Source: a virus
Strand: one strand, 5' to 3'
Length of the DNA: 64,000 nt
Virus record (IMG/VR): IMGVR_UViG_3300021185_001174
Coordinates: 1 to 64,000 of that record
The notes under the pieces were generated by a model. That model made no database searches, was not told the origin of the DNA, and saw only the letters and a program-made list of their open reading frames with translations. Position 1 is the first letter of the stretch, and each line of letters starts with the position of its first letter. The translations under genes and the position numbers were made by a program. Below are positions 6,953 to 37,103 of the stretch, piece by piece.

Positions 6953-6972
6953 TTATATTCTCTCTTTTTATA

Positions 6973-6980
6973 TATTTATA
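6973..6980 (-). promoter_or_regulatory. Late promoter for the DUF4815 gene
   Basis: Minus-strand TATAAATA stands 20 bases before the ATG at 6952, with an AAAAGAGAG ribosome-binding stretch between. Sequence and placement match T4 late promoters. Confidence 0.6.
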
Positions 6981-6989
6981 GAACTTATT

Positions 6990-8408
6990 TTAGAATTCTA
7001 TAATACATTTAATATCTTCAATCTGTGATGCAGTTCTTGAAATAGGTGCTCTATTTTCAAGGAATACTAATTGACCACTACCTTCAACAAATTCTGAATT
7101 CTGAAGTGAGTTAGAGGTAACTGTACTTGAATTACCACCTGTTGGTAAAGTTCCATTAATAGCTTCACCACCTGTAGCAAAGGATTTAAATCCAGTCTTT
7201 CTATTTTGGTAATAGTATAATCTCTTATTTGCAACATCAATTTCTGCAAGGTATGCCTTGGCAGTTGATGTACCACCAGTAAGTAGAGCATCAACATTAT
7301 ATGTAGTGACATCAGCACTTGAATCCATTTGTAAATACTTAAGACCCTTTAGAGTAGATGCTGTTGCAACTGTTGTAGTTGCCGCACCGTTTGCTTGACC
7401 ACTATTATCTGCTCTCTTAAATGGATTTTTAAGAATTCCTATTTGTCTAAAGTCGTTACCAACAGTTAAGTCTCCACCTTCAGCAGAATCTAACTGAGCA
7501 TTAAGAGCAATATAAAAAGCTCCTAGTTCTTTTACTGGGTCAACTCCGTGCCCTAATGGTGGTGATATAACTGCTCTTGCAGAACCACCTGAACCACCGC
7601 CACCACTAATAACGATATCAGCAATAGTATAGTCTGTTCCTTTATTAGTAATATTGATACTTGCAATAGTTTGATTTGAACCTGTTCCAGCCATTGTTAT
7701 TTGAGCCGCTGCAACTGTAGCACTTGTTCCATCACCTGAAATAGTTACAGTTGGTTTACTTGAATACCCTGTACCTGCATTGGTAACTTCAATTCTTTCA
7801 ATACCTGCGGCATTAGCATTAGATGCTGAAAGTATTTGCGAAGACTGTTGCGGAAAGTCTACACTAGTATCTGCCAAAACAGGTGATACTGCCAATGTTT
7901 TTACTGGCATATATGAATTAGTTAAGAATTTTTCCGAATCAGCTGTAGTAATAGTATACATATATTTCCATGTATACCCATCACCTAAAGTAACCGGTGC
8001 AACTCCAGTATGAACTGGCTGTACTGATGTTACTGATGGCCCGGCCTTAATACATTTATAAACTTTAAATTCTGACCTAGTAACAACATAAAATCTTTCA
8101 TCAAAGATGTCAGAATCATTTGAATCCCATGCCACATATGTCTGGCCGTCATCATAATTGTATCTAGGTACTACATGAGAAATGTCACTTGAAGTGACCC
8201 TCTTCATGCCGAGTAATTGTTGGAATGACTCACTAGTATCATCTATGTGGTCACCAGGGACGAAAGGAGTTGTGTCGGTAAGGTCGGAAGTGGCATTCGA
8301 CCAAACATCTGATTTACCGATGGTCAAATAAACACTGGAGCCTGTGACATCTTCCTTGAAATTCTCTGCATTGAGAACTCTAAAAGGGGTTGTAATAATT
8401 GCTGCCAT
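6990..8408 (-). CDS. 8: Baseplate wedge protein gp8-like
   Basis: A 472-residue protein matching T4 gp8 in ordered landmarks: a YLTIGKSDVWSN segment near the start (T4: FITFGRSEPWSS), GDGYTWKYMY in the middle (T4: GDGYVWEYLF), FRQIGILKNP (T4: FRQISIITNP) and a closing LENRAPI...EDIK segment (T4: MENRPPI...EEIN). gp8 dimers join gp7 and gp6 in the wedge. It is longer than T4 gp8 (334 residues); part of the excess is two Gly-rich repeats (TNAGTGYSSKPTVTISG type) that also occur five times in the upstream wedge protein. It is transcribed after gp25, gp6 and a gp7-position gene, as in T4. Confidence 0.85.
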   Translation of the reverse strand: MAAIITTPFRVLNAENFKEDVTGSSVYLTIGKSDVWSNATSDLTDTTPFVPGDHIDDTSESFQQLLGMKRVTSSDISHVVPRYNYDDGQTYVAWDSNDSDIFDERFYVVTRSEFKVYKCIKAGPSVTSVQPVHTGVAPVTLGDGYTWKYMYTITTADSEKFLTNSYMPVKTLAVSPVLADTSVDFPQQSSQILSASNANAAGIERIEVTNAGTGYSSKPTVTISGDGTSATVAAAQITMAGTGSNQTIASINITNKGTDYTIADIVISGGGGSGGSARAVISPPLGHGVDPVKELGAFYIALNAQLDSAEGGDLTVGNDFRQIGILKNPFKRADNSGQANGAATTTVATASTLKGLKYLQMDSSADVTTYNVDALLTGGTSTAKAYLAEIDVANKRLYYYQNRKTGFKSFATGGEAINGTLPTGGNSSTVTSNSLQNSEFVEGSGQLVFLENRAPISRTASQIEDIKCIIEF

Positions 8409-8428
8409 AATTCTTTCCTATGTTTATG

Positions 8429-10609
8429 TTAATCTAAGTTTATAAAACTACTATTGTTATAACTATTTATAGTGTTTTTATATTTGTTTTGTATGATTTG
8501 CGAACCTAATTGTTCTATTGTAAAGTTACTATTAAAGAGTTTATCACTCTCATAAAAACTATTCCCTTTACTATTAAAATAGTTATTTAATCTTGTTTGA
8601 TTTAAATCATTAAGTAATACAATAAGTATTGCCTTAATATCTTTAGCTCTGTATTCTGATACTGCAGTAGAACCTAGTGTAACACTTGGGTCAAATACAT
8701 ATCCGTTACCATTGTTAGTTATACTTATAGTAGTTATTCCTGATGGTAATAGCAATACTTCTGCACTTGCATTACTTCCACTTCCACCACTAAATGTAAT
8801 AGTAGGTGATTCGGTGTATCCACTGCCTTGATTTGTTATTACAACACCATCAACTTCACCTAAGTTATTTATTATAGCATAACCTAAGGCAGTTACACCA
8901 CTAGATGGAGCAGAGAATGTAACACTTGGCCTTGATGAATAATTAGCACCACCTGATATAATACTTACTCTTTGAACTCCTGTTGGTTCTAAATTAAACT
9001 TGGCCGTTGCCTGTACATTAGTACTTAAAGGAATTCCATCTTGGTCAGCTGCAGTAGGTGGTCCAATTTTTATAATAGGAGGTTTACGATATTCTCTAAT
9101 TGCCACAGATTCTGTAGGGAAAGAAAGACTAGTAACTGTTCCAACTCCACTGTTTGCCGATACTGCTAGTGAAGCAGAAGTATAACCAGTATTTGTTCCA
9201 CTTATAGTAACCGACTCTATCTCTCCTAGTGCATTAAGAACTGGAGTTAATGTAGCATTTCCACCCTCTGCAATTGAAATTGTAGGATTGGAACTAAAGC
9301 CAAATCCAGGGTTAATAACTTGCACTGAAGTAATTGAACCATTAGTAATCTGTGCAGAAAGAACTGCGTTACGACTTATCTTTGCTTCTGCAGTAGGGGT
9401 AAACATAGAAGCAAATGCCTCTACTAATAATGGTATATCTTCAACACCAATTAATCCTGGCTGAATACCAGGCATAGATGATAATGTAAATCTATTAATT
9501 CTAGTAGCACCATAGGCATTTACTAGTTGACTTACCAACTGGCCAGTTTCTGGATTTTTAGTCTGTACTGTAACACCTTTATTGTTATCACCAAATGCCG
9601 CTCTTGTAAGTTGTAAAAGAATTAAAATTTCACCGAAGAATATAAATCCTGCAGGGTGTACTAGTCTATTAAATACACTATCCCAATCTTCAATATTTCT
9701 ACCTGTCTTAATAAGATAACTATATTTTTGGTATCTATAACTATCTTGTAATCTAATTTTTTTCTCTGATAAGAAACCTTTAGTTGAGATAAATTGATTT
9801 GCATCTGAATCCCAATCTCCAGAAGATGGTATAAGAGTATTATCCCATGGTCGGGTTACTTCTACTTCATCTTCAAAGAACAATCTAAAAAATGTGGCTA
9901 TGGAATCTTGTGAACCTCTTACCTTATAAAAATCAATAATTCTTTTATAAAGAGTTGCCTTATTAACTGCTATGTCTCTAGGAATAATAGCGGCAATTTC
10001 TTTTTGCATAAACTTTAAATATTCACTAGTAGGGTCAGCATTATCATCTAGGTTCTTATCAATGTCCATTGCATCTTCTAATGCATTAAGTACATATGAT
10101 GGCCCAGGTCCTACCCAGTTTTTAACCAGAGTAGTTAATTTACCAGTCTTAGTATTATGGGCAGATAATCCACTAACAGTAAAAGTTTTACCTACTTCCG
10201 TAGTACTTTTAGCAAGTGAACCAGGAAGCTCATTACCATTTGATATCTGTACGTTTGCACTAGATAGAGTGATTACTGTTCCGTCATCTAATACTAGTGT
10301 ACTGTTTGCTCCATTGTGGTCTGTAAAGAATTCATTACCATTTGAGTCTGGGTCTGGATATCTAAAGACTGCCTGACCATCTAAAATTCTATCTGAGAAA
10401 GATTCGGTAGTTTGATAAATAAACTCATTCATATTCATAAATTCGTAATATGATTCCAAGAGTTTTTGAATACCGACATTACTAGTAACATCAATATTAT
10501 CCAATATACCATCTGGTATTAATTGTTTTACCTGCAAGTCTTCTTTGGACTTTCTCTTTGAAGAAAATACCGACTCTACATATCCTGGTGAATTATTATC
10601 TATTGACAT
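8429..10609 (-). CDS. Baseplate wedge protein in gp7 position
   Basis: A 726-residue structural protein between gp6 and gp8, the T4 gp7 place. The N-terminal third is mixed helical and includes a segment (IPRDIAVNKATLYKRI, then FYKVRGSQDS) of a kind common in marine phage baseplate proteins. The C-terminal half holds five repeats of the pattern (I/V)xI(T/S)NxGxGYxxxPxVTxSG, predicted short beta strands. It is shorter than T4 gp7 (1032 residues) and I cannot align it to gp7 by eye, so the gp7 label rests on gene order. It ends just before gp8 and starts 2 bases after the gp6 stop. Confidence 0.6.
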   Translation of the reverse strand: MSIDNNSPGYVESVFSSKRKSKEDLQVKQLIPDGILDNIDVTSNVGIQKLLESYYEFMNMNEFIYQTTESFSDRILDGQAVFRYPDPDSNGNEFFTDHNGANSTLVLDDGTVITLSSANVQISNGNELPGSLAKSTTEVGKTFTVSGLSAHNTKTGKLTTLVKNWVGPGPSYVLNALEDAMDIDKNLDDNADPTSEYLKFMQKEIAAIIPRDIAVNKATLYKRIIDFYKVRGSQDSIATFFRLFFEDEVEVTRPWDNTLIPSSGDWDSDANQFISTKGFLSEKKIRLQDSYRYQKYSYLIKTGRNIEDWDSVFNRLVHPAGFIFFGEILILLQLTRAAFGDNNKGVTVQTKNPETGQLVSQLVNAYGATRINRFTLSSMPGIQPGLIGVEDIPLLVEAFASMFTPTAEAKISRNAVLSAQITNGSITSVQVINPGFGFSSNPTISIAEGGNATLTPVLNALGEIESVTISGTNTGYTSASLAVSANSGVGTVTSLSFPTESVAIREYRKPPIIKIGPPTAADQDGIPLSTNVQATAKFNLEPTGVQRVSIISGGANYSSRPSVTFSAPSSGVTALGYAIINNLGEVDGVVITNQGSGYTESPTITFSGGSGSNASAEVLLLPSGITTISITNNGNGYVFDPSVTLGSTAVSEYRAKDIKAILIVLLNDLNQTRLNNYFNSKGNSFYESDKLFNSNFTIEQLGSQIIQNKYKNTINSYNNSSFINLD
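8464..8471 (-). promoter_or_regulatory. Late promoter before gp8-like gene
   Basis: Minus-strand TATAAATA inside the 3' end of the preceding wedge gene, 55 bases before the gp8-like start at 8408; spacing suits a late transcript with a short leader. Confidence 0.5.
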
Positions 10610-10610
10610 A

Positions 10611-12479
10611 TTATCTTAACCTAGAATTAACTGAATAGTCTATTGAACCTGATGAACCTGCTGTAGAGATAGTATCAACTTGAGCTGTAATACTTACAAA
10701 GGCTTGGTCTATATTAATTAACTGGTCTCTTTTTGGTGCTATATCTAGCGAGTTAGGAATTGCAGTAATTCTAATAGAAGTATTTGAGCTAGATGTAGTA
10801 AAATTATTTAATGAGATTTTACCAGATGATGGTATAATAGTTCCTGCATTGTTAATAACAGTAATATTATTACCGTCTACTACTTTATAAACCATAACTT
10901 GTCTATTATTAGAACCAGTAATTGGAATATCACCAAAGAAATGGTCTGCACCACCAGTAGATATTTTAAACGCTGTTGAACTAATTAAGAAATTACTTGA
11001 GTCACCTGATTCATATAAAGGTGATGCAAAGGATATATTAAATACATTATCAGTATCAGTAGTTCCTGCAACAATATTCTTGTACATATAAGGTCTAATA
11101 GTAGAGTTAAGAATAGAAGGGTCAGCTGAATCAATTAACTTTAGAAGTTGAGAGTGTCTAAATACTCCATCGAACTTATTTAAGTTATTAAAGTTATAAT
11201 CAGAAATAACATCTCTTACAACATTTTGCAATTCAACACTAGTTCTATCCGTAATGTTTGGATTATATTTAAAGAATACATCCAATTCTAAATTTGTAAA
11301 GTTAGGGTCTACAATTTCTGGAGTAATAGAAACAATGTTCTTACCCTTAAGTACAGTATCTTTAATTGCTAATTTTTCGGCCGATGTTAATGTTTCAGCA
11401 GTAAGAGGTTTAATTGCAATATAGACCGTTCCGAAATCTGCAGGGTCATTATCTTCTCCACCCCATGTAGAAATAGAAGAAATATTTGCAAAACCTTTTA
11501 GAATAATTGACCTATAGTCTTCTGCAGTAACTGCTCTGTTCTGCGCAGTAAATGTAAGTGGTGCATTAAATCTAATTGACTCTATTGTTTCTGGAGGATT
11601 ACCACCTGATGAATTACTAACTGTTGTAATAGTATTACTAAAACTACCAGTCAGCTGTGGTATAGTATCATTAAATACAAATGTACTTGCACCATTGGCC
11701 TCTTCACCATGAGTATAAATATAGTCTAGTGTTACAATATTATCATTAACTGGTTTCTTACCAGTAATACCATCACCAAAATATATTTCATACTTACCAC
11801 CTGGATTTTCTTGTAGATAATATACTTGTGCCTTTGAGTCTACACTTAATAGTGATTCAAATTTTGTATATATGTTATAAGACGTTGACCTTTCATTGTC
11901 TTGTACTCTTACTCTTAATGTACTAGTATCTGCATCAGTATCTGCAAGTTGAAATTTCTGATTATCAATATCATTATCAACTCTGTAAAGTAAAGATTTT
12001 AAAGTTCCTTGTACAATACTAATATTATTAAAAGTATACTTATTAGTGGCCGAATTAAGAGTTGCCGATTCATTATTTAAAAGAGCAAAGTCATATCTAA
12101 TTCCACTTAGCGTTGACCTAAGTTTTGTTCCTCTTTTAAGTACAAGTGATTCTGGTCTGACTGATTCATTAGTTGCATCGATTTCAATATTTACTGTAGC
12201 CCTACCAGCAAGAATTGACCTAGGAGTATAACCTAAAAGTTTAGCACGAGTAACTACATTACCTCTAATTTGAGCTGAATCTAAAAATGCCTCATTCAAA
12301 GCATAGTGAGCGGCCATTGCATTATAATGTGTATTATATGCAAGAACATCAAGTAGTACATTAAGACTACTTCCTTCAAAGTTAAAATCATTAAACTCAG
12401 ATTGATTCTTTAGATAGTTTTTTAAATTATCTTTAATTTGGTCGAAATCTAGTTCGGTTACGTTTAAGTTACTGGCCAT
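10611..12479 (-). CDS. 6: Baseplate wedge protein gp6
   Basis: A 622-residue protein with the gp6/J-type N-terminus: residues 6-60 read VTELDFDQIKDNLKNYL, then the conserved LLDVLAYNTHYNAMAAHYA block and LDSAQIRGNVVTRAKLLGY. T4 gp6 is 660 residues and forms the inner ring of the baseplate with gp25 and gp53. The centre holds a typical wedge segment around residue 320 (FTAQNRAVTAEDYRSII), where the family enters its conserved beta core. It sits directly after gp25 with 4 bases between, the usual pairing. Confidence is high from both sequence and order. Confidence 0.92.
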   Translation of the reverse strand: MASNLNVTELDFDQIKDNLKNYLKNQSEFNDFNFEGSSLNVLLDVLAYNTHYNAMAAHYALNEAFLDSAQIRGNVVTRAKLLGYTPRSILAGRATVNIEIDATNESVRPESLVLKRGTKLRSTLSGIRYDFALLNNESATLNSATNKYTFNNISIVQGTLKSLLYRVDNDIDNQKFQLADTDADTSTLRVRVQDNERSTSYNIYTKFESLLSVDSKAQVYYLQENPGGKYEIYFGDGITGKKPVNDNIVTLDYIYTHGEEANGASTFVFNDTIPQLTGSFSNTITTVSNSSGGNPPETIESIRFNAPLTFTAQNRAVTAEDYRSIILKGFANISSISTWGGEDNDPADFGTVYIAIKPLTAETLTSAEKLAIKDTVLKGKNIVSITPEIVDPNFTNLELDVFFKYNPNITDRTSVELQNVVRDVISDYNFNNLNKFDGVFRHSQLLKLIDSADPSILNSTIRPYMYKNIVAGTTDTDNVFNISFASPLYESGDSSNFLISSTAFKISTGGADHFFGDIPITGSNNRQVMVYKVVDGNNITVINNAGTIIPSSGKISLNNFTTSSSNTSIRITAIPNSLDIAPKRDQLINIDQAFVSITAQVDTISTAGSSGSIDYSVNSRLR

Positions 12480-12483
12480 ATTA

Positions 12484-12933
12484 TTACCTTAATCTTCTTA
12501 GAGAAATATCTAGTTTTTCAATTCTATTATTCTCTTTTATTTTAAATTTTATAGTAATGTCATATCTATTTTTATTATCATTACTTTTTGCATTTACCTT
12601 TATTATATCTACTCTACTTTCTTTATCAAGGGTACGTTTTATCTCTTCTTCTATAGATATTTTTGTTAACAGATCCATGGGTTCAAAAAGTAAACCTCTT
12701 AAATTTCCACCTAGTTGTGGCTGAAATGGTCTTTCGAATACATCAGTTAACAGCATATTTTTTAATGCATTTCTAATGGCCCTATCATCTTTTAGAGGTC
12801 TAATATCACCAGTATAAGGGTGTACTGCCAAAGATAAATCAATATCACTATGGGGTTTTTTACGCGCTAGTTCTTTAGAACCACCTGTAATGTCCGATGT
12901 ATTTACTCTACTATTTTGAAAATCTATAGCCAT
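12484..12933 (-). CDS. 25: Baseplate wedge protein gp25
   Basis: A 149-residue protein of the gp25 (lysozyme-fold, non-enzymatic) family. Landmarks are GDIRPLKDDRAIRNALKNML, then FERPFQPQLGGNLRGLLFEP, the most conserved part of gp25 in contractile tails. It joins the gp6-gp7-gp53 wedge and touches the sheath's first ring. The ATG has no clear Shine-Dalgarno; a TATAAATA box ends only 5 bases upstream, so the mRNA might be nearly leaderless, or translation may depend on readthrough from the upstream gene. Confidence 0.93.
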   Translation of the reverse strand: MAIDFQNSRVNTSDITGGSKELARKKPHSDIDLSLAVHPYTGDIRPLKDDRAIRNALKNMLLTDVFERPFQPQLGGNLRGLLFEPMDLLTKISIEEEIKRTLDKESRVDIIKVNAKSNDNKNRYDITIKFKIKENNRIEKLDISLRRLR

Positions 12934-12938
12934 ATAGT

Positions 12939-12946
12939 TATTTATA
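12939..12946 (-). promoter_or_regulatory. Late promoter box 5 bases before gp25
   Basis: Minus-strand CTTATAAATA; the octamer ends 5 bases before the gp25 ATG. With T4-like spacing, transcription would begin at or very near the start codon. The same 5-base arrangement recurs before the gene starting at 36163. Confidence 0.5.
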
Positions 12947-18702: not shown

Positions 18703-19149
18703 ATGGCTTATAGAGGGAAATATACAATTAAACGTAAAGATAAATATCTGGGTGATGCATCCAGTGTAGTTTATCGTTCATTATGGGAAAGACAAGCATT
18801 CAAGTGGTGTGAGAGTAACCCTAAAGTAAAGAGATGGAATAGTGAAGAGATAGTTATTCCCTATAAATGTAAGACTGACAATAAGTTGCATAGATATTAT
18901 GTTGACTTATTAATAGAATTAGATAATAAAGAAATCATCTTGGTTGAAATTAAACCAAAGAAAGAAACATCACCCCCAAAAAAGCCCTCTCGTAAGACTA
19001 AAAGATATATCAATGAGGTTATGACATACATTAAGAATCAATCTAAATGGGAAGCAGCACAACAATATGCAGACCATAAAGGATGGAAGTTTCAAGTATG
19101 GACTGAAGATACTTTAGGCAATCTAGGTATCAAACTACTGAAAAGTTGA
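18703..19149 (+). CDS. 4: Head completion protein gp4
   Basis: A 148-residue basic protein matching T4 gp4 (gp50/4 head completion, 150 residues): YRGKYTIKRKDKYLGD, then VVYRSLWERQAFKWCESNP and NKLHRYYVDLLIEL-EIKPKK, a TnsA/endonuclease-like fold with the D-ExK pattern (D near residue 69, EIK near 86). gp4 acts on the packaged head before tail joining. In T4 it lies beside gp53; here it heads the divergent plus-strand block, 54 bases from the baseplate operon. Confidence 0.88.
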   Translation: MAYRGKYTIKRKDKYLGDASSVVYRSLWERQAFKWCESNPKVKRWNSEEIVIPYKCKTDNKLHRYYVDLLIELDNKEIILVEIKPKKETSPPKKPSRKTKRYINEVMTYIKNQSKWEAAQQYADHKGWKFQVWTEDTLGNLGIKLLKS

Positions 19150-29194: not shown

Positions 29195-29617
29195 TTAGTC
29201 TTTCGGCCAACACTTTTGGTAAAGTTCTGCCTCTAGTTTATAGGCTTCTTTTTCCCATGGAGCATTTTCATATTGATAGTTGCGAGGTTTCTTACCCTTC
29301 CATGACATACTATAACCACATAGTTCGCCACGTAAGTATTGTTTTGCATGAACCATTTCATGAGCAAGAGTTTGCATCATTGATTCGTGTGATAGTTTTT
29401 CTCCTAATGATTTTCGAGCGATGTGTATATCAACATAACCCTCGTTAGTATCACCCCAGCACAAACCTTCAGAGTCTGAATCTAAGGTAGTTTCAAAGTT
29501 AAGTATAATAACCTTGGACCATAATCGATTAATACCCAATTCTCTACAAAGCTTCTTAATGTAGATATCAATCTTTTTCTTTTGGGCCACTTGACCTCTT
29601 AAAACTAAAATTGGCAT
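29195..29617 (-). CDS. SprT-like zinc metallopeptidase
   Basis: A 140-residue protein with the metallopeptidase motif HEMVH at residues 86-90 (H86, E87, H90) inside the helix LAHEMVHAKQYLRG, and a downstream Glu-rich helix (WEKEAYKLEAEL) that would supply a third ligand. It has the size and order of the SprT domain (compare eukaryotic Spartan, which cuts DNA-protein crosslinks), without the C-terminal zinc ribbon. Cytoplasmic; expressed alone from an early promoter. The target is unknown. Confidence 0.75.
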   Translation of the reverse strand: MPILVLRGQVAQKKKIDIYIKKLCRELGINRLWSKVIILNFETTLDSDSEGLCWGDTNEGYVDIHIARKSLGEKLSHESMMQTLAHEMVHAKQYLRGELCGYSMSWKGKKPRNYQYENAPWEKEAYKLEAELYQKCWPKD

Positions 29618-29711: not shown

Positions 29712-31556
29712 CTATAACTTAGGAGAATAAATGGTTATAAGTTCTTCCTTACCCTTTACGTTAATACTACCTATTTCTTTGCACTTATACTCTTCTGGCA
29801 ACTGGTCTTTTGTGAATGAGGAGATGATGGTTTTATATTCAAGCAACTCGTGTCTTGCTGCTTTAGCCTCGAGCCTTGCCGCGAGGTTGACTGCGTCTCC
29901 GATGACAGAGTAATCAAACCGAGACTCACTACCCATATTACCAACAATGCAATCGCCAGTATTGACGCCAGTTCCAACATTGATGGCGGGTAAACCCTGC
30001 TCGCTATATCGTCTTCTGAGTTCATCTGTTTTTATCTCTATCTCTATTGCTGATTTGACGGCCAGTTCTGCATGATTGGGACAATCTAATGGGGCGTTCC
30101 AGAAGGCCATAATACAATCGCCCATATACTTATCTATTGTTCCATTATTATTTAGTATAATTTTAGTCATTGCGTCTAAGAATTCATTAATAAGGATGAC
30201 CAAACCCTCTGGGTCGTTCTTGTTTTTATAGTGTTCTGATATAGGAGTAAACCCTACAATGTCCATGAATAGGAAGCTCATCTCTTTTCTCTCACCCCCT
30301 AAAGTTAATAGTGATGGGTCTTTCTGTAACATATAAACCATATCAGGCGAAAGATAAGTTCCAAATTGTTTCTTAATTTGTTGTCTTAACATAAACTGTT
30401 TATAGAAGTTATTAAAACTTGATGAGGTAAAGAGTAGTATAAATAAAACTGCAGGATAACTAACATCTAGGAGAATATACCATTCAGTCCAGGCATAATA
30501 AACGGCGGCTCCATAACCGAACAGCACGACTGAGAAGATTGCAGCACCATAATAAATTGATAGATAGTAGACTGCCAGAACAAGACCAAGAGAACCAAGA
30601 ACCATTAATACTAGTTCGAGCCATGGTGCCCATATCGGACGAGATATCGAATCCTGGTTCACAATCGTTTGCATGGCGGCCGCTTGTAGATGATGTGCCG
30701 ACTTTAAGCCCTGAGGAGTTGGTATCTGAGACGCAAGGCCCTTCGCCGTTAGGCCCACAAGAACAGTACGACCTTGAAGATTCGGTAACTCATTGGACCC
30801 GTAGTTTATTTCCTTAAACTTATAATTAGGATTAATCCATATAGAACCATTAGAGTCAGTTGATAATATAAATGGTCTTAATATAATTTGTTCAATACCA
30901 GTTTCATTTACCTTTATAGTATAGGATTGTTTTTGGCCTATTACTCTTACAGCCTCTAGTGCAAATGATGGATATAACTCTTTATTAATTTGTGATATTA
31001 ATGGGATTCTTCTTACTAGTCCATCAACTTCTGGCATACCATTTACAAGTCCGTGTCCCCACGCTCCCTGTTCTAGTTCTGGTAGATTAGTGATTAGGCC
31101 ATTATATTTTATAGCCCACTCTAGCGGGTCTCCTGTACCGAATATAGCTGAACCCACATAAGGGGCTTTCGATGACTTACCAGAGTTATCTGCATCTTGT
31201 GCAAGTATAATACCATTGTCTTTTATCCATGAAGCAAATACTTCATCACCACCAAATCTATCAACTTCAGGAAACATAATTGTGAAACCAATCATACCTG
31301 CATTTGCATTTCTTAAATCAGAAATCATCTGTGCATATGTTGACCTAGGGAATGGGTACTGACCTAATTCAGCCAGAGTTTCTTCCGATATGTTTAGTAA
31401 TATTATTTCTTTTGATTCGGTCTCTTCTATAGAACCAATGAATGAATCGAATGTATTTAATCTAAACTGCTGTACTAGTCCTGGGTCCAGAACTCTTAAA
31501 GTTATTAAAAGAATTCCTAGACCTATAGTAGTCCATATGGAAGTTAGGTATTTCAT
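29712..31556 (-). CDS. CHASE2-domain membrane adenylate cyclase
   Basis: A 614-residue protein. An N-terminal membrane helix (about 8-24) precedes a CHASE2 sensor domain outside the membrane (about 28-300: FRLNTFDSFIG, GMIGFTIMFPEVDR, RTVLVGLTAKGL). Three membrane helices follow (about 310-331, 335-356, 360-378), then a class III cyclase domain (about 424-614). Catalytic residues are all present: metal Asp D432 (MDIVGFT) and D480 (KYMGD), adenine-selecting K476 and D554 (VIGDAVNLAARLE), transition-state N557 and R561. So it should make cAMP in response to a periplasmic signal. It ends a cassette with a FecR-domain protein and curli genes; CHASE2 cyclases and FecR proteins are known neighbours in bacteria. 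Gene is intact, a bacterial-type receptor in a lytic phage. Confidence 0.93.
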   Translation of the reverse strand: MKYLTSIWTTIGLGILLITLRVLDPGLVQQFRLNTFDSFIGSIEETESKEIILLNISEETLAELGQYPFPRSTYAQMISDLRNANAGMIGFTIMFPEVDRFGGDEVFASWIKDNGIILAQDADNSGKSSKAPYVGSAIFGTGDPLEWAIKYNGLITNLPELEQGAWGHGLVNGMPEVDGLVRRIPLISQINKELYPSFALEAVRVIGQKQSYTIKVNETGIEQIILRPFILSTDSNGSIWINPNYKFKEINYGSNELPNLQGRTVLVGLTAKGLASQIPTPQGLKSAHHLQAAAMQTIVNQDSISRPIWAPWLELVLMVLGSLGLVLAVYYLSIYYGAAIFSVVLFGYGAAVYYAWTEWYILLDVSYPAVLFILLFTSSSFNNFYKQFMLRQQIKKQFGTYLSPDMVYMLQKDPSLLTLGGERKEMSFLFMDIVGFTPISEHYKNKNDPEGLVILINEFLDAMTKIILNNNGTIDKYMGDCIMAFWNAPLDCPNHAELAVKSAIEIEIKTDELRRRYSEQGLPAINVGTGVNTGDCIVGNMGSESRFDYSVIGDAVNLAARLEAKAARHELLEYKTIISSFTKDQLPEEYKCKEIGSINVKGKEELITIYSPKL

Positions 31557-31636
31557 ATGTATATATCTATGTATATTCCACGGCCGCCATTAGGAGTTCC
31601 ATACTTATAACGAAGATATCGGCCATAGTTTTTCAT
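31553..31636 (-). CDS. Bridging 27-residue mini-ORF before the cyclase
   Basis: ATG at 31636 overlaps the curlin stop as TGATG and its stop overlaps the cyclase ATG as ATGA, so it fills the gap exactly. The peptide is Tyr/Gly/Arg-rich (MKNYGRYLRYKYG...). It may serve only to couple cyclase translation to the curlin gene, or be a real micropeptide. Chance openness over 84 bases cannot be excluded. Confidence 0.45.
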   Translation of the reverse strand: MKNYGRYLRYKYGTPNGGRGIYIDIYI

Positions 31637-32397
31637 CAGTCTTGTGTTACAGATACAGCACAACCACCTACTGTAATGCAGTTTTGAGTTAGAGTATATG
31701 TTTGGTTTGTGGTACTCATTTGTTTTAAGATTAAATCTGTTCCGTATAAACCGTCAATTGTTATGTTTGCATTGTGACTTGCATTGTTACCTTTTTGTCG
31801 GACAAATACATCATTATAATCATTATAGATTGTTAGGTTTAAGTTCTTATCACCATCGCTCTGTTGTTTAACCTGAACCTTATTACCATCTCCAGCCAAA
31901 TGTAAATCAAAGCTATGACCTGTAGTAGACCCTTGGTTGGTTTGTTGGACTGCCATATCATTATTATCACCATAAAGAGTAATATCTACCTCATGGCCTC
32001 CTCCTTCATAACCATCAGCCCACCAAGTTAAATCTGTATCAGAATCAAGAGTATTCCATGCAACACCTTGGGCAACTTTCATTTGATTACTAGTACCACT
32101 TACTTCATCAAAGATTATTTTATTAATGCCGTCACTATCATTAACTTGTACTAAATACATTGATAAGCTTGATGCATTAATATATGAACCACTATCTTTC
32201 ATTTCAATTCTATTATTATATCCTATCTGGTCAATACCTAACTGTAAATTATTACCCGACTGCTCGATACTAATAACATTGTCATCGGCATTTGCAATTA
32301 GTGGTAATAAAAGACCGGCCAATATAATAATAGGCCAAAACAGTATACTTATCCATATTAAAGCTTTCATTGAGTATTCTTCTATCTTATCTAGCAT
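31636..32397 (-). CDS. Secreted curlin-like protein 2
   Basis: A 253-residue protein with a signal/membrane segment (about 10-37, LIWISILFWPIIILAGLLLP, ANADD cleavage region). The mature part starts IEQSGNNLQLGIDQIGYNN, a curlin repeat (Q-x-G-x-N-x5-Q type), then more G-D-N/G-D-G-N units (GDNNDMAVQQ, GDGNKVQVKQQ, DVFVRQKGNN) and a C-terminal Cys pair (C-x6-C). CsgA-like subunits form amyloid fibres after export through CsgG. It starts TAAAATG after FecR. Repeats are less regular than in CsgA, so fibre formation is inferred. Confidence 0.8.
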   Translation of the reverse strand: MLDKIEEYSMKALIWISILFWPIIILAGLLLPLIANADDNVISIEQSGNNLQLGIDQIGYNNRIEMKDSGSYINASSLSMYLVQVNDSDGINKIIFDEVSGTSNQMKVAQGVAWNTLDSDTDLTWWADGYEGGGHEVDITLYGDNNDMAVQQTNQGSTTGHSFDLHLAGDGNKVQVKQQSDGDKNLNLTIYNDYNDVFVRQKGNNASHNANITIDGLYGTDLILKQMSTTNQTYTLTQNCITVGGCAVSVTQD

Positions 32398-32398
32398 T

Positions 32399-33511
32399 TT
32401 AATTCACCTGATTTATATATATGAGGATGTCTTCACTATCGTTACCTGTTATTACTCCATTCCATGTTGGTGTAATAGTATCTAGTGTAAAGTTACCACC
32501 CGCCGCTAATTTTATTCTTATAATTCCATTTACGTTTCTATATAGTACTAAACTACCATCTTGCAAAAATACATTATATTGGGATTCATCATTAAATCCT
32601 CTTGCGGCTCCTTTGATATCAAACTCGCCTAATGTATCGAATAAGTCTTTTGAATCTAAAATATCCAATACGTCAATTAAATATTCAACATCCAATTCAT
32701 CTATATCCAATTCAGTAAAATCTAAATCCGTTTCTTCTTCTAGTGCATCTTTCTCTAATTCATCAAACTCTAAAAAGTCTATATCTAAAAAACCTTTATC
32801 ATCATTCTGTTCATCTGCCAATTCTTCCTGAATCTGGTCTTTCACTTCCTGTGGGGGTGAAACGATAAACATATTATCAATGGACGCTGGTGTGATTCCA
32901 TTTATTTTAACTGGCCTTGTTGGTGCGCTATCTAAAGTACTCACCATTGTTGCTTGATAAACTTCGGTTAGAGTTACTACTCCACCTAAATTTTCTACCT
33001 CTATTTCACCCGATGGGTCACCATTCTCATCAGGTAATAATATAATTAAAGACCTTCCTAACTCATCTACTGTTGTGGTAAAGTCCGTACCTCTTATAGC
33101 AATGGATGCCGTAGGGGTAGATATATCAATATTAGCCTTATTAACCAAACCTAATCTACCCGAAGCAAACCTGGCTGTACCCATTGTGAACTTCATTGTC
33201 ATTTTGGAAAGGGATGGGTCAGCATCATAATATACTTCGTCAATTAAGACTTCGGTGTGTTCTTTTAGAGATAACTGAGCCTTATCTAAAAACTCAATTA
33301 ACATCTTACCCTTACCAGTTTCGGCAACGTCATTTAGTTGCACAGGTATATTATTTAATACCTTTATCTCTTCATTATTTCTTAGTATTTGCCCAACACC
33401 TATGGACTCTACAATACTCCCAATATCATCATCCGCAAAGGAATTTGATACCAGAAGTAATGTACTAAGAATCGCCGTTTGTATCTTGCTGATTAATTTG
33501 TATTGTTGCAT
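32399..33511 (-). CDS. FecR-domain periplasmic protein
   Basis: A 370-residue protein with a signal peptide (1-26, ILSTLLLVSNSFA). Residues 30-150 are a FecR domain: GKGKMLIEFLDKAQLSLKEH, then MKFTMGTARFASGRLG and the hallmark IDISTPTASIAIRGTDFT. Residues 225-300 are extremely Asp/Glu-rich with Leu/Phe (FLDIDFLEFDELEKDALEEE type), probably extended, followed by a small beta domain. FecR-type proteins of this secreted kind often accompany CHASE2 cyclases in bacteria and are unlike sigma-regulating FecR. It overlaps the upstream curlin gene by 47 bases. A ligand or partner of the cyclase sensor is plausible. Confidence 0.85.
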   Translation of the reverse strand: MQQYKLISKIQTAILSTLLLVSNSFADDDIGSIVESIGVGQILRNNEEIKVLNNIPVQLNDVAETGKGKMLIEFLDKAQLSLKEHTEVLIDEVYYDADPSLSKMTMKFTMGTARFASGRLGLVNKANIDISTPTASIAIRGTDFTTTVDELGRSLIILLPDENGDPSGEIEVENLGGVVTLTEVYQATMVSTLDSAPTRPVKINGITPASIDNMFIVSPPQEVKDQIQEELADEQNDDKGFLDIDFLEFDELEKDALEEETDLDFTELDIDELDVEYLIDVLDILDSKDLFDTLGEFDIKGAARGFNDESQYNVFLQDGSLVLYRNVNGIIRIKLAAGGNFTLDTITPTWNGVITGNDSEDILIYINQVN

Positions 33512-34205
33512 TGTCTGATGTTATATCTAAATTAATTACTGCATTAGGTGAAACACAAGCAACACCTGCTCCAGTGGCACATGTACCACTAATTTGATTA
33601 ATATCAATATCTGCACTATCGCCAACTAATTCAACGACCATTGATTGAGCTCCATCATTCTGCAATGTATTAATGTTATTACTATCTCCAGTAATATCAA
33701 AAGTCCATGTAGAATCATCTGCTTCAAAGTCTAGGTCGAATATATTAGAGCTACCAATTAAAATTAAATCCGCATCTAATCTTTCAGCACTATATACATA
33801 ACCTTGGTCTAAATCAAATGTATTACTATCTCCAGTAATATCAAAGTTATAATCTGAATCGTCCGAACTACCGACATAGCCGATATTCCAGTCCACCTCG
33901 TTTGAATCTCCCAGTAATGAGAACGTCAAAGAAGATGAATCTAAGTCCAAAGGACCATAAATTAAATTCTGATTTCCGACCATATCAATATCAAATGTTA
34001 ATGATGAACCAACGATAGTCATATCAGAACCAGATGATGAAAAATCATCTAATCCAATTTTGTTACCGTATCCGATTTGGTCAATATATAGAGTTAAAGT
34101 GTCACCACTTTGTTCTATCATAATCTCATTATCATCTGATGCTTGTGCAAAAAGAGAAGGAGTCAACAACAAGCTTAAACTTAAACTAATTAATGTTTTC
34201 TTCAT
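33465..34205 (-). CDS. Secreted curlin-like protein 1
   Basis: A 246-residue, Asp/Ser-rich acidic protein with a signal peptide (1-22, LISLSLSLLLTPSLFAQA). The mature N-terminus (IEQSGDTLTLYIDQIGYGNK) is a curlin repeat nearly identical to that of the second curlin. About eight (G/S)(D/S)S-N-x-F-D-(I/L) units follow (TGDSNTFDLDQG, IGSSNIFDLD, TGDSNNINTLQN), with a late Cys pair (CATGAGVACV). Suited to a beta-stacked secreted fibre. It follows CsgG with a 20-base overlap and leads into FecR. Confidence 0.8.
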   Translation of the reverse strand: MKKTLISLSLSLLLTPSLFAQASDDNEIMIEQSGDTLTLYIDQIGYGNKIGLDDFSSSGSDMTIVGSSLTFDIDMVGNQNLIYGPLDLDSSSLTFSLLGDSNEVDWNIGYVGSSDDSDYNFDITGDSNTFDLDQGYVYSAERLDADLILIGSSNIFDLDFEADDSTWTFDITGDSNNINTLQNDGAQSMVVELVGDSADIDINQISGTCATGAGVACVSPNAVINLDITSDNATIQINQQDTNGDS

Positions 34206-35124
34206 TTTTCTTTTCCTCTATTGAGTGCCTTTCGTTTTTCCCATCATGTTGATGAGGATGTCTATGGCCCTCGGTTAAATTCCAGAACTTACGGTCATGA
34301 CCCTGGTATATTAATTCAAGTACTCCTGCCTCTATGGCTGCTCGTACCGCATATGTCACACTCTCATTATTTCCCACTCCGTCCTCGTATTCAATTAGTT
34401 GTGTACCCTGTTCATAGAACCTGAATACATCACCACTTGAACCATAAGAAAGAACCGACTTCTTACTTTGGACGTTTAATAAAACTTCACCAGTTAAGAC
34501 TGAAACTGCTCTAATTGCAACAGTTACTACATCTTTCCTATACATTCTACTATAACCAATACCAAGTGTCCTTGCGCCTCGACCACCTGTTTCAGTATTT
34601 GTATCATAACCAATAATGCCACCTTCAATAATTATTCCAGCGAATAAAAGTGGACCCAATTCCTTTGCAGTGTTTCCTTGGCTCTTGGCCATGTCTTGTC
34701 TGCCGCTACGGATAATCTGTCTTTCTCTTACTAGATTATCAATACCTTGTCTTTCTGCTACTCTAAACCATGTACCGCCACCTGCAGTCTTAAGAGCATC
34801 TATTAACATTTCAGTACCGCCTTGGGTAACTGCAGTAGAGAATGAAGCTATGTTATCTACTGATTTTCTTTGTCCAGTTAAATCTTTAAATGAATAAACT
34901 GCAACAACTGGTCTATCTTTTGCTGGTGGTAAATTTAATAAATCTACAAATGCAGGTAACTTAACAGCTGTAGGATGGTCAACACATATATACTTACGAG
35001 ACTTAAATTGATTCCATAAGTATGGTTCATCATCAGCACATTTCTGTGGGTCTTTCGACCACTGCGGTATAGAAGCACAACCACTTAAAAATAAAATAGA
35101 TATTAATAAAAGTCTAACCATCAT
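34186..35124 (-). CDS. csgG: CsgG-like outer-membrane export pore lipoprotein
   Basis: A 312-residue protein with a lipoprotein signal (FLSGC, Cys at residue 16 from the ATG at 35124). The CsgG family core is clear: VVAVYSFKDLTGQRK, STAVTQGGTEMLIDALKTAG, WFRVAERQGIDNLVRERQII, LLFAGIIIEGGIIGYDTNTE and a C-terminal YAVRAAIEAGVLELI. CsgG forms a nonameric outer-membrane channel for curlin export. The tail after residue 285 is His-rich (EGHRHPHQHDG), unusual for the family. ATG at 35124 has CAGGAC upstream; it overlaps the CsgF stop. Neighbours CsgF and curlins support the assignment. Confidence 0.9.
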   Translation of the reverse strand: MMVRLLLISILFLSGCASIPQWSKDPQKCADDEPYLWNQFKSRKYICVDHPTAVKLPAFVDLLNLPPAKDRPVVAVYSFKDLTGQRKSVDNIASFSTAVTQGGTEMLIDALKTAGGGTWFRVAERQGIDNLVRERQIIRSGRQDMAKSQGNTAKELGPLLFAGIIIEGGIIGYDTNTETGGRGARTLGIGYSRMYRKDVVTVAIRAVSVLTGEVLLNVQSKKSVLSYGSSGDVFRFYEQGTQLIEYEDGVGNNESVTYAVRAAIEAGVLELIYQGHDRKFWNLTEGHRHPHQHDGKNERHSIEEKKNEENIN

Positions 35125-35608
35125 CTGGGTCCTGACTAAAATTACCAGCACCTACTGGTATTTCTATGATAGTTTCGGAACCATCTTCTGTTATAATTGT
35201 CATTCTTATTACTTCTGAACCATCAGCATTAGTAATAACTTCGTATGTTACTGTAGAACCTTCTAATACAAATGAACCAAATCTAACAGAATCATCATTA
35301 CTAAACATTGATTCTACTAGTTGTTTTGCCATCTGTGCATATATTCTACTCTCTAAGTTCCTAATAAACTTGGCCAATACACTATTATCTTCTTCTCTTT
35401 CTGCGGCTCTTCTTGCGGCTTCTAAAGCATCTTCTATTGCTTTCTTTCTAGTATGTTCAATATTATCTATGGTAAGATAATGGTTACCAGTACCAACTCC
35501 ACTAAAGGATGGATTTTTAAACCCAAATTTTATTTCATCTGCCAATACTGGATATGATACTATAAATAATACCATAAGTAAAAGCACAATATTTCTAATC
35601 TTCATCAT
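35114..35608 (-). CDS. csgF: CsgF-like curli assembly factor
   Basis: A 164-residue protein with a signal peptide (IVLLLMVLFIVSYPVLA) and mature N-terminus DEIKFGFKNPSFSGVGTGN, which matches CsgF (F-x-F-x-N-P-x-F-G-G). In E. coli this N-terminal region plugs into the CsgG pore to form its second constriction. A charged helix (60-85) and C-terminal beta repeats follow. Start placed at the ATG at 35608 giving a normal signal peptide; an upstream ATG at 35626 adds MRRKKI. CsgE and CsgC-like genes are not seen nearby. Confidence 0.85.
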   Translation of the reverse strand: MMKIRNIVLLLMVLFIVSYPVLADEIKFGFKNPSFSGVGTGNHYLTIDNIEHTRKKAIEDALEAARRAAEREEDNSVLAKFIRNLESRIYAQMAKQLVESMFSNDDSVRFGSFVLEGSTVTYEVITNADGSEVIRMTIITEDGSETIIEIPVGAGNFSQDPDDG

Positions 35609-35867
35609 TATTTTCTTTCGCCTCATTAATAACTTGTTGTCTAGCTCTATATTCTAAAACTACATCAACTTTTTGTTGTAACCTAATTAAATCTTGGTCC
35701 AACATTCTTGTCTGGTCTATAACTCTTATAAGAGCTATATGCATTTCATCTAACTTTGGTTCTATATGTGTATTAATAAATGACCAAACATAGTAAATAA
35801 AATAACCCATCCCAACTGCCATCACAACAGGGAAACCATATTCAGATATTAACTGAGCAATATCCAT
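35595..35867 (-). CDS. Small membrane-anchored coiled-coil protein B
   Basis: A 90-residue protein: N-terminal membrane helix (residues 11-30, FPVVMAVGMGYFIYYVWSFI) and a C-terminal coiled coil (LIRLQQKVDVVLEY) facing the other side. Start overlaps the previous stop (TAATG). Sister of the 98-residue gene just upstream; both could be a holin-type pair or inner-membrane parts of the curli cassette. Function unknown. Confidence 0.65.
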   Translation of the reverse strand: MDIAQLISEYGFPVVMAVGMGYFIYYVWSFINTHIEPKLDEMHIALIRVIDQTRMLDQDLIRLQQKVDVVLEYRARQQVINEAKENNDED

Positions 35868-36163
35868 TAGTCTCTCCTAGTATCTAGCTTTCCATCTTCT
35901 ATAAAGTTTTCTGCCCTAGCTATTCTAGTAGTATCTGGTCTTAAATCTAACGCTGACGATACCAATAAATCTATTTTAATCATTTCATTACTCATTGTTC
36001 TACATCTATTCTCCAATGAATTAGCAAATATTGTTAGTGTAGTAATCTTATCTACTATACCTTCCATTATTTGTTTTATTACAATAAAGATAAATACTCC
36101 CATTACAAGAGAGCCTGCAATAGGTGCACCAACGTCCGCAATAAGTTTAAATACGTCTTCCAT
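35867..36163 (-). CDS. Small membrane-anchored coiled-coil protein A
   Basis: A 98-residue protein: membrane helix at about 12-32 (GAPIAGSLVMGVFIFIVIKQ), then a helical segment with heptads and a basic end. First gene of the cassette leading to csgF/csgG; a TATAAATA box ends 5 bases before its ATG. Same layout as the next gene, likely an old duplication. A holin or export-related role is possible. Confidence 0.65.
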   Translation of the reverse strand: MEDVFKLIADVGAPIAGSLVMGVFIFIVIKQIMEGIVDKITTLTIFANSLENRCRTMSNEMIKIDLLVSSALDLRPDTTRIARAENFIEDGKLDTRRD

Positions 36164-36168
36164 GTATC

Positions 36169-36176
36169 TATTTATA
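36169..36176 (-). promoter_or_regulatory. Late promoter of the curli/cyclase cassette
   Basis: Minus-strand CTTATAAATA ending 5 bases before the ATG at 36163. It is the only recognisable promoter upstream of the 36163-29712 gene run, which is otherwise overlapping. Suggests late expression. Confidence 0.55.
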
Positions 36177-36229: not shown

Positions 36230-36493
36230 TTAGTGAGTTTGTGCTAGTTTAACAGCCTTTACACCAGTAATACTATTAGCTACTTCAAGAGTTTCTGTAA
36301 TAGCCTTTCGAATATTTACAACTTCTCCAGTATTAACTGTTACTGAGCCTACTGTATTTGAACCTTCTTTAATGGTTACCAACTGTGCAGCGGCATTAGT
36401 GTTAAGGACTCTAACAAGTGAAGCACGTGATACATTAGAAGCAGTATTACTTAGTGCTACTTCTACTGCCTTTACTTTAATTGTCTCGGCCAT
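36230..36493 (-). CDS. Small conserved phage protein, beta-rich
   Basis: An 87-residue protein (VEVALSNTASNVSRASLVRV, then GSNTVGSVTVNTGEVVNIRK) with no Cys or Trp, all-beta by pattern. Similar small proteins are common next to virion genes in marine phages, where they may decorate capsid or fibres. TCTCC complement before the ATG (AGGAGA) is a good ribosome-binding site. Function not known. Confidence 0.7.
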   Translation of the reverse strand: MAETIKVKAVEVALSNTASNVSRASLVRVLNTNAAAQLVTIKEGSNTVGSVTVNTGEVVNIRKAITETLEVANSITGVKAVKLAQTH

Positions 36494-36504: not shown

Positions 36505-36696
36505 TTATGAACTAACTAAATTTAGTTCTTCTAAACTTTTGTGCCAATCTGAGTATCTGAAAAGTCCTTGCTTTTCATGACACCAATACCAGCCCTTACT
36601 TTCTTGTTGCTCTTGTGGAATACTAGATTCTACCCTTAAAGGGCCTCTAGCCTTTTCATAAGTCTTTCGGCTCGTTTCGTTACCTGTTTGTGCCAT
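36505..36696 (-). CDS. Small Trp-rich hypothetical protein
   Basis: A 63-residue protein, C-terminus ESKGWYWCHEKQGLFRYSDW. The ATG at 36696 makes it overlap the lysozyme 3' end by 61 bases; most of its coding lies past the lysozyme stop. Conserved-looking aromatic pattern, unknown role. Confidence 0.5.
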   Translation of the reverse strand: MAQTGNETSRKTYEKARGPLRVESSIPQEQQESKGWYWCHEKQGLFRYSDWHKSLEELNLVSS

Positions 36697-37103
36697 CTTG
36701 AATCTCTGCCTTCTACAGCAGCCTCCTTCCAATCACCACACTGCAGCGCTGCATTGTGCTTTCTAAATTTACTTAAGCGCGTAAGTCCCATATTAAACAT
36801 CATATTTGCCACTATTTGTTTTACTTCTTCTGGATATCCATCCCATCCTTCATGTAATGTTTTACAGTCAGCGATGACAGTCTGTACATCTTTCTCAAAG
36901 CAATCAACTGTTCGTTCTTCTGATACTGGAGTTCCAACAGGTTGCCCAAACTCTGGGTCTGTTTCGAGGACCAAGTGTCCAATTCCGAAAGTTGGGTAGC
37001 CCAGATGGTCTTTATAAATCTCGTTAACCTTACCTTCATCAAATGTCAATTGCTCCCTTAACTGGTCAATATCAATATCTTTATTTTTTCTTCCGAATAA
37101 CAT
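36636..37103 (-). CDS. e: T4-type lysozyme (endolysin)
   Basis: A 155-residue glycoside hydrolase family 24 protein. Catalytic triad as in T4 lysozyme: E23 (FDEGK), D32 (YKDHLGYPTFGIGH) and T38. Later blocks QIVANMMFNMGLTRLSKF and SRWHKQVTKRAERL match T4 L-xx-MVFQMG and SRWYNQTPNRAKRV. It degrades peptidoglycan at lysis. No signal peptide, so it needs a holin. An AAGG site precedes the ATG. Confidence 0.92.
   Translation of the reverse strand: MLFGRKNKDIDIDQLREQLTFDEGKVNEIYKDHLGYPTFGIGHLVLETDPEFGQPVGTPVSEERTVDCFEKDVQTVIADCKTLHEGWDGYPEEVKQIVANMMFNMGLTRLSKFRKHNAALQCGDWKEAAVEGRDSRWHKQVTKRAERLMKRLEAL

Follow-up and report, generated by a model that had tools for sequence, protein, structure and literature searches.

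A curli-type secretion module with a FecR-domain protein and a CHASE2 adenylate cyclase in a marine T4-like phage

The 64,000-nucleotide stretch of DNA analysed here (positions 1 to 64,000 of the IMG/VR virus record IMGVR_UViG_3300021185_001174; hereafter the window) comes, judging from its genes, from a marine T4-like phage carrying a phage-borne type VIII (curli) secretion module. The module spans 36163-29712 on the minus strand and consists of eight genes, all intact, in the order TM1, TM2, CsgF, CsgG, curlin-1, FecR, curlin-2 and CHASE2 adenylate cyclase. The genes overlap by 1 nucleotide (nt; TM1/TM2), 32 nt (TM2/CsgF), 38 nt (CsgF/CsgG), 20 nt (CsgG/curlin-1) and 47 nt (curlin-1/FecR), and gaps of 1 and 79 nt separate FecR from curlin-2 and curlin-2 from the cyclase, respectively. 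An original prediction, made from the letters alone, had described eight intact overlapping genes behind a promoter box, and they were found where it had placed them. The module does not stand as a discovery; the whole set, including FecR and the cyclase, was published in 2022 (PMC9599517), and the present locus is a divergent new member of a module already described in kind. New here are the signs that the TM pair is a phage addition, the bacterial relatives of the operon, the FecR tail, the FecR-CHASE2 covariation, the leaderless-type promoter placement and the finding that TM1 and TM2 are not recognizable kinases.

The explanation we favour, which we consider about evenly poised between right and wrong, is late secretion of curlin-type fibres, with FecR linking the state of the fibre or of its export to the synthesis of cyclic adenosine monophosphate (cAMP) in the host. 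Several of its elements can be read directly from the sequence. TM1 is preceded by a promoter of late type, CsgG is a lipoprotein pore accompanied by CsgF, both curlin-like proteins and the FecR-domain protein are Sec-exported, and the CHASE2 cyclase is an inner-membrane enzyme whose catalytic site is intact. The CsgG-CsgF pore would enter the host outer membrane late in infection and export the curlins. FecR ends in residues that copy a curlin strand; it would remain attached to curlin or at the export site and touch the CHASE2 domain, whereby export or fibre state would set host cAMP synthesis, and TM1 and TM2 would act as inner-membrane helpers added by the phage. A more specific version, which we put forward only tentatively, is that FecR is a fibre-tethered reporter, its tail lying in, or exported with, curlin and its domain regulating the matched CHASE2, so that the state of amyloid fibre or export is converted into cAMP; this circuit would exist in certain Alphaproteobacteria and would have been taken over by marine phages that added TM1 and TM2. 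Phage curli modules are common in the ocean and are known from phages that infect SAR11 and OM43, for which a lack of curli genes has been reported. The comparison yields testable claims (the place of FecR with the fibre genes, its curlin-strand tail and named residues matched to CHASE2), and the FecR-CHASE2 link, if true, would make an exported fibre system feed back on cAMP, which is unusual. The promoter and the module genes are as follows:

36169..36176, minus strand: TATAAATA, promoter box of the T4 late type, spanning -13 to -6 relative to the TM1 ATG
35867..36163, minus strand: TM1 (98 aa), opening gene of the module and specific to phages; a single N-terminal membrane helix is followed by a helical tail
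35595..35867, minus strand: TM2, 90 aa, paralogue of TM1 with weak PHROG_4898 holin likeness
35114..35626, minus strand: CsgF (PF10614), secreted partner of the CsgG pore
34186..35151, minus strand: CsgG (PF03783), outer-membrane lipoprotein pore; GTG start listed, an internal ATG also possible
33465..34205, minus strand: curlin-1 (CsgA/B-like), signal peptide, predicted all-beta
32399..33511, minus strand: secreted FecR-domain protein lacking a cytoplasmic anti-sigma part, with ILIYINQVN as its curlin-like C-terminal strand
31636..32397, minus strand: curlin-2 (CsgA/B-like), C-terminus AVSVTQD
29712..31556, minus strand: class III adenylate cyclase with CHASE2; the six catalytic residues are all kept

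Pore, curlins and distribution of the module

In a Pfam scan of the module proteins judged against the curated cut-offs, both CsgG (PF03783, 5e-54) and CsgF (PF10614, 1.2e-12) scored above the cut-off. The CsgG profile matched E. coli CsgG structures at 1.9e-65 and the lipobox LFLSGC is present, and the N-terminal residues 7-46 of CsgF gave a weak match to E. coli CsgF in 6l7a (E 0.03). Curlin-1 and curlin-2 of the window, scored alone, remained below the cut-off for Curlin_rpt (0.0016 and 0.0017). The repeat was matched in 43 of 50 curlin-1 relatives (best 1e-5), the AlphaFold model of curlin-1 is all-beta (14 strands; predicted local distance difference test, pLDDT, 80.6; predicted template modelling score, pTM, 0.76), and G[DNS][SNDT] motifs are frequently spaced 22, 44 and 66 residues apart, 26, 48 and 74 being common as well. 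Given the matches among relatives, the all-beta model and the recurring 22-residue spacing, the module is taken to encode the curlin-repeat substrate expected of type VIII secretion, and curlin-1 appears a clear member of the curlin family, though single proteins of the window score below the cut-off. The pore genes and curlin-like proteins named in the original prediction are thereby borne out. A further CsgG is encoded in record OR851715, a 1,499-base 'Salmonella phage' entry that resembles host sequence rather than phage.

IMG/VR was scanned with the cyclase, CsgG, TM2, a second cyclase type and FecR; the module counts given here are those among the matches listed, and they cover related sequences from loci chosen by similarity. 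At least 194 distinct CsgG-bearing modules were obtained, with the exact eight-gene order in 121 of the 194, the remainder being nearly all shortened (mostly at contig ends) or having split or duplicated hits. Where the flank was sufficient in the first set, the order was incomplete only in a lone cyclase hit (L081) and in three bacterial operons. With TM2 as the only query, CsgF came next in all loci long enough to show it, L277 excepted. In that locus (5702-12252) the module is rearranged: curlin-FecR-cyclase lie nearby but on the other strand from TM1-TM2, and genes for a methyltransferase-like protein and a permease-like membrane protein stand between the two parts. In the sequenced isolates HTVC008M and Melnitz, all eight genes recur in identical order, so the order sought in other phage genomes is found both there and in environmental contigs; its presence in two isolates and many independent contigs rules out chance and the assembly artefact against which the original prediction was to be checked. 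The median ratio of nonsynonymous to synonymous substitution (dN/dS) was 0.20-0.28 for seven module genes (curlin-2 left out), indicating purifying selection, and together with conservation of the catalytic site this rules out decaying or hitch-hiking genes. Distance matrices reveal a mosaic in which TM1 and TM2 share a history (r 0.87), as do CsgF, CsgG, curlin-1 and FecR (r 0.77-0.90), with the cyclase apart. Three contigs with the module (L273, L274 and L275) measure 217-340 kb, larger than known pelagimyophages, and possibly belong to jumbo phages. Phage-type modules with TM1/TM2 also occur on contigs of metagenome-assembled genomes (MAGs) titled Synechococcus, Planctomycetaceae, Saprospirales and Flavobacteriaceae (L164, L165, L166 and L169), which are probably misbinned phage contigs.

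The three bacterial operons, obtained in a FecR scan of GTDB, lie on two Caulobacteraceae MAG contigs and a 705-kb Hyphomonas MAG contig (L167, L168 and L170) and read CsgF-CsgG-curlin(s)-FecR-CHASE2 cyclase. They share with the phage module the core order, the full-length FecR type and the CHASE2 cyclase, and differ in lacking TM1/TM2 and in having the curlin genes together ahead of FecR. Genes for TonB receptors, alanine racemase and FAA hydrolase lie around the Hyphomonas operon, which marks its surroundings as chromosome. The coupling of FecR and cyclase to curli genes thus has cellular relatives. The curli-FecR-cyclase operon appears rare in Alphaproteobacteria, since among the sampled alphaproteobacterial genomes the full-length FecR type was seen only in G001; a CsgF scan for the Hyphomonas-type order returned mostly another, higher-scoring CsgF class.

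FecR, its curlin-like tail and the CHASE2 sensor

The FecR domain (PF04773, 7e-7, above the cut-off) is the sole domain found in its protein, which begins with a signal peptide. Its model is closest, weakly, to the surface-signalling domain of PupR (6ovk, E 1.5e-3); a role as anti-sigma factor or iron regulator was rejected, as there is no cytoplasmic part. A C-terminal ending of the form strand-Q-x was found in 157 of 158 distinct phage FecRs and in 145 of 161 curlin-2 proteins. It was absent from all 33 control FecRs, taken from loci without CsgG or curlin, and from CsgF, CsgG, TM1 and TM2. In the Caulobacteraceae operons, the FecRs end in INVTQD and the curlins in TITQ. FecR also groups with CsgF, CsgG and curlin-1 in the distance matrices, and on this evidence is best read as a fibre-side protein that belongs with the fibre genes.

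The cyclase combines CHASE2 (PF05226, 2.5e-36) with Guanylate_cyc (PF00211, 3.8e-19), both above the cut-off. Its catalytic residues D432, K476, D480, D548, N557 and R561 are intact in 137 of 139 cyclases and include the Lys/Asp pair of the adenine type, which identifies a class III adenylate cyclase with a CHASE2 sensor. Sensor and catalytic half have differing histories (r 0.53). The distances of the sensor correlate with those of FecR residues 90-150 (r 0.63), and the partial correlation with the FecR domain is 0.62 (95% 0.53-0.69; 0 of 500 permutations); the values for CsgG and for curlin-2, the intervening gene, are 0.34 and 0.23, the latter being the lowest. CHASE2 falls into two types with at least nine changes on the CsgG tree, and FecR residue 110 (M/S/A/F versus Q/R/L) predicts the type in 103 of 104 modules, and in 28 of 28 outside the set from which the rule was derived. 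The next most informative FecR residues are 122, 89, 93, 78 and 120. In all, 11 FecR columns carry at least half of the CHASE2-type information, compared with at most one in each of the other module genes tested, and strict two-way clustering of the other genes gave no mirror of the CHASE2 types. Cyclase homologues moreover adjoin 9 of 58 FecR genes in loci without CsgG or curlin. The FecR-CHASE2 link postulated in the original prediction thereby gains substance. The data suggest that the FecR domain is matched to the CHASE2 sensor; the association is suggestive, not conclusive, because the loci were picked by similarity and are interrelated.

FecR and the cyclase might instead be passengers that travel with the curli genes by linkage and make no contact, in keeping with the partly separate history of the cyclase from CsgF-CsgG-curlin-1-FecR (r 0.30-0.64). 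Linkage, however, predicts the strongest CHASE2 covariation for curlin-2, where the weakest was observed, and the sensor follows the FecR domain more closely than the end of FecR on the cyclase side. We therefore consider mere linkage improbable.

Several observations weigh against the proposal of fibre secretion coupled to cAMP. Foldseek returned only weak beta-helix-like matches to the curlin-1 model and no close fold. The Hyphomonas FecR is without the tail motif, and a profile comparison of FecR with curlin-1 gave a probability of 1%, with no homology outside the terminal strand; a hidden curlin domain in the C-terminal part of FecR was rejected on this ground, and the claim is limited to the terminal strand. 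The 28 modules in which the rule for FecR residue 110 was checked anew are mutually related, 24 of them being of one CHASE2 type, and the supported independent pairs number only five (~4.6 agreeing, 0 opposing; p ~0.06 in a sign test). Melnitz is one of the two cyclase exceptions, with two catalytic substitutions, and cultures infected with Melnitz did not clump (PMC9004378). A search for a phage gene with a cyclic-nucleotide-binding domain (cNMP-binding, PF00027) found none, so a phage-encoded cAMP receptor is rejected and an effect of cAMP would need host proteins. Finally, no CsgE (PF10627) was found in the 120.8-kb virus record, which may be a fragment, in HTVC008M, in Melnitz or in two bacterial relatives. 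As to the Melnitz cyclase itself (L003 16826-18877), the residues missing are the adenine-specificity Asp and the transition-state Asn, and the C-terminus is extended; the enzyme may be inactive or altered.

CsgE has been reported as non-essential for curli (PMC7029224), and its absence does not reflect phage decay, since the bacterial relatives with the same operon also lack a match. For CsgE, the original statement that CsgE, CsgC and CsgD were not seen thus stands across the record; for CsgC and CsgD it extends to a Pfam scan of the module's own genes, in which neither was seen and beyond which no separate search was aimed at either. A pore of CsgG and CsgF without CsgE could be an open channel through which nutrients or cofactors are imported or leak, the curlins being minor plugs or gates, an idea raised earlier (PMC7029224 and PMC9599517) and in line with the absence of CsgE from the virus record, HTVC008M and Melnitz. 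Such a channel is hard to reconcile with purifying selection on curlin-1 and FecR (dN/dS 0.21-0.28), with the one history of these two proteins and the pore genes, and with bacterial operons that likewise have no CsgE match, and we rate it no higher than the passenger explanation.

Late promoter, TM1 and TM2

The box TATAAATA occurs at 36176-36169 on the minus strand, 13 nt before the TM1 ATG. It is present within 120 nt 5' of TM1 in 96 of 182 distinct modules (chance expectation ~0.012 per 120 nt), in 56 of them at exactly -13, and this recurrence agrees with the late programme that had been predicted. The late box of T4 spans -13 to -6 relative to the transcript start. Because of this rule, the predicted start would coincide with the A of the TM1 ATG and the transcript would be leaderless. 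Further boxes exactly 13 nt before an ATG are found in the window at 12933-12946 and 1486 (both minus strand), one of them ahead of a gp25-like baseplate gene, and late transcripts of this phage may generally start without a leader. In many modules without a nearby TATAAATA, another gene ends directly before TM1, and the promoter may for this reason be located further upstream.

TM1 and TM2 are paralogues. A single membrane helix is predicted at the N-terminus of each, and the N-side is the more acidic one. They have been named histidine kinases (PMC9599517), an identity rejected here given their sizes of 98 and 90 aa and the absence of HisKA and HATPase_c domains (Pfam) from 35 TM1 and 39 TM2 relatives. 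A search of two bacterial genomes (G001 and G002) gave no TM1-like genes, and the pair appears to be a phage addition to the module, judging from the three bacterial operons.

The main rival for TM1/TM2 is a role in lysis timing, in which the two proteins would be holins acting with a nearby lysozyme and CsgG/CsgF a repurposed outer-membrane hole that aids progeny release, following the pinholin idea of Buchholz et al. 2022. The late promoter would suit this role, as would the weak match of 19 of 39 TM2 relatives to the PHROG_4898 holin (best 1e-4; no Pfam holin) and a lysozyme homologue no more than 2 kb upstream of TM1, present in 51 of 148 modules and likewise in this window. However, no lysozyme was found nearby in two thirds of the modules, TM1/TM2 adjoin CsgF/CsgG in all but one sufficiently long TM2-picked locus, which fits curli helpers better, and two conserved curlins, FecR and an active-looking cyclase are left unexplained. 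We thus find a lysis role unlikely, if slightly less so than linkage or an open channel, and take TM1 and TM2 to be module-specific inner-membrane helpers.

Published systems and genomic surroundings

Zaragoza-Solas et al. 2020 reported csgF and csgG in marine phages (PMC7029224), and Buchholz et al. 2022 added the case of Melnitz and the lysis idea (PMC9004378); what the original prediction said of csgG/csgF in T4-like phages of SAR11 and OM43 was correct. Wittmers et al. 2022 described the full module, given as HK-CsgF-CsgG-CsgA/B-FecR-CsgA/B-AC (HK, histidine kinase; AC, adenylate cyclase), in podo- and myophages and found it expressed in metatranscriptomes (PMC9599517). The pelagiphage module for type VIII secretion of these studies (PMC9599517, PMC7029224) has the same order, with one or two small upstream genes, and occurs in marine phages including T4-like ones. 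The upstream genes are without a kinase domain here, where the cyclase sensor is CHASE2, and the bacterial MAG operons contradict the statement that FecR and AC lie outside bacterial operons of this type (PMC9599517). HTVC008M and Melnitz share the eight-gene order, and the cyclase matches over 96% of its length; identity to HTVC008M is 44% for CsgG, 44% for the cyclase and 37% for FecR. The neighbourhoods differ, with gp32 and replication genes next to the module in HTVC008M and Melnitz and tail and lysozyme genes in the present virus. A riboswitch as reported for Melnitz was sought, and no Rfam match was obtained in the window.

The curli system of E. coli (CsgBAC-DEFG) has the CsgG pore, CsgF and curlin repeats in common with the module, which differs in having no CsgE match, in CsgC and CsgD being unseen and in the addition of FecR and the cyclase. 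In Sinorhizobium, CHASE2 cyclases are activated by a protein signal via the outer-membrane barrel NsrA (PMC13001267). The NsrA-CyaD/K system resembles the module in placing an outer-membrane protein upstream of CHASE2 adenylate cyclases, and differs in that its cyclases act via the CRP-family regulator Clr. To our knowledge, no curli genes are involved in that signalling. By analogy, NsrA-CyaD/K may be viewed as a working precedent for the proposed signalling.

The virus contig measures 120.8 kb. The window also encodes T4-like baseplate and tail proteins, gp32 and ribonucleotide reductase, and its gp6 has Melnitz, HTVC008M and Mosig as nearest relatives (38-40%), so the virus represents a separate lineage near the pelagimyophages. 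Upstream of TM1 lie two neighbours:

36230..36493, minus strand: small conserved gene, PHROG_19805-like, often directly 5' of TM1
36636..37103, minus strand: phage lysozyme, not counted as a module member

Homologues of the former were found near TM1 in 46 loci. Directly 3' of the module, at 29195-29617, is a gene for an SprT-like metallopeptidase with an HEMVH motif, and a gene with a TnsA-like endonuclease N-terminal domain (18703-19149; PF08722, 4.7e-19) adjoins the baseplate genes.

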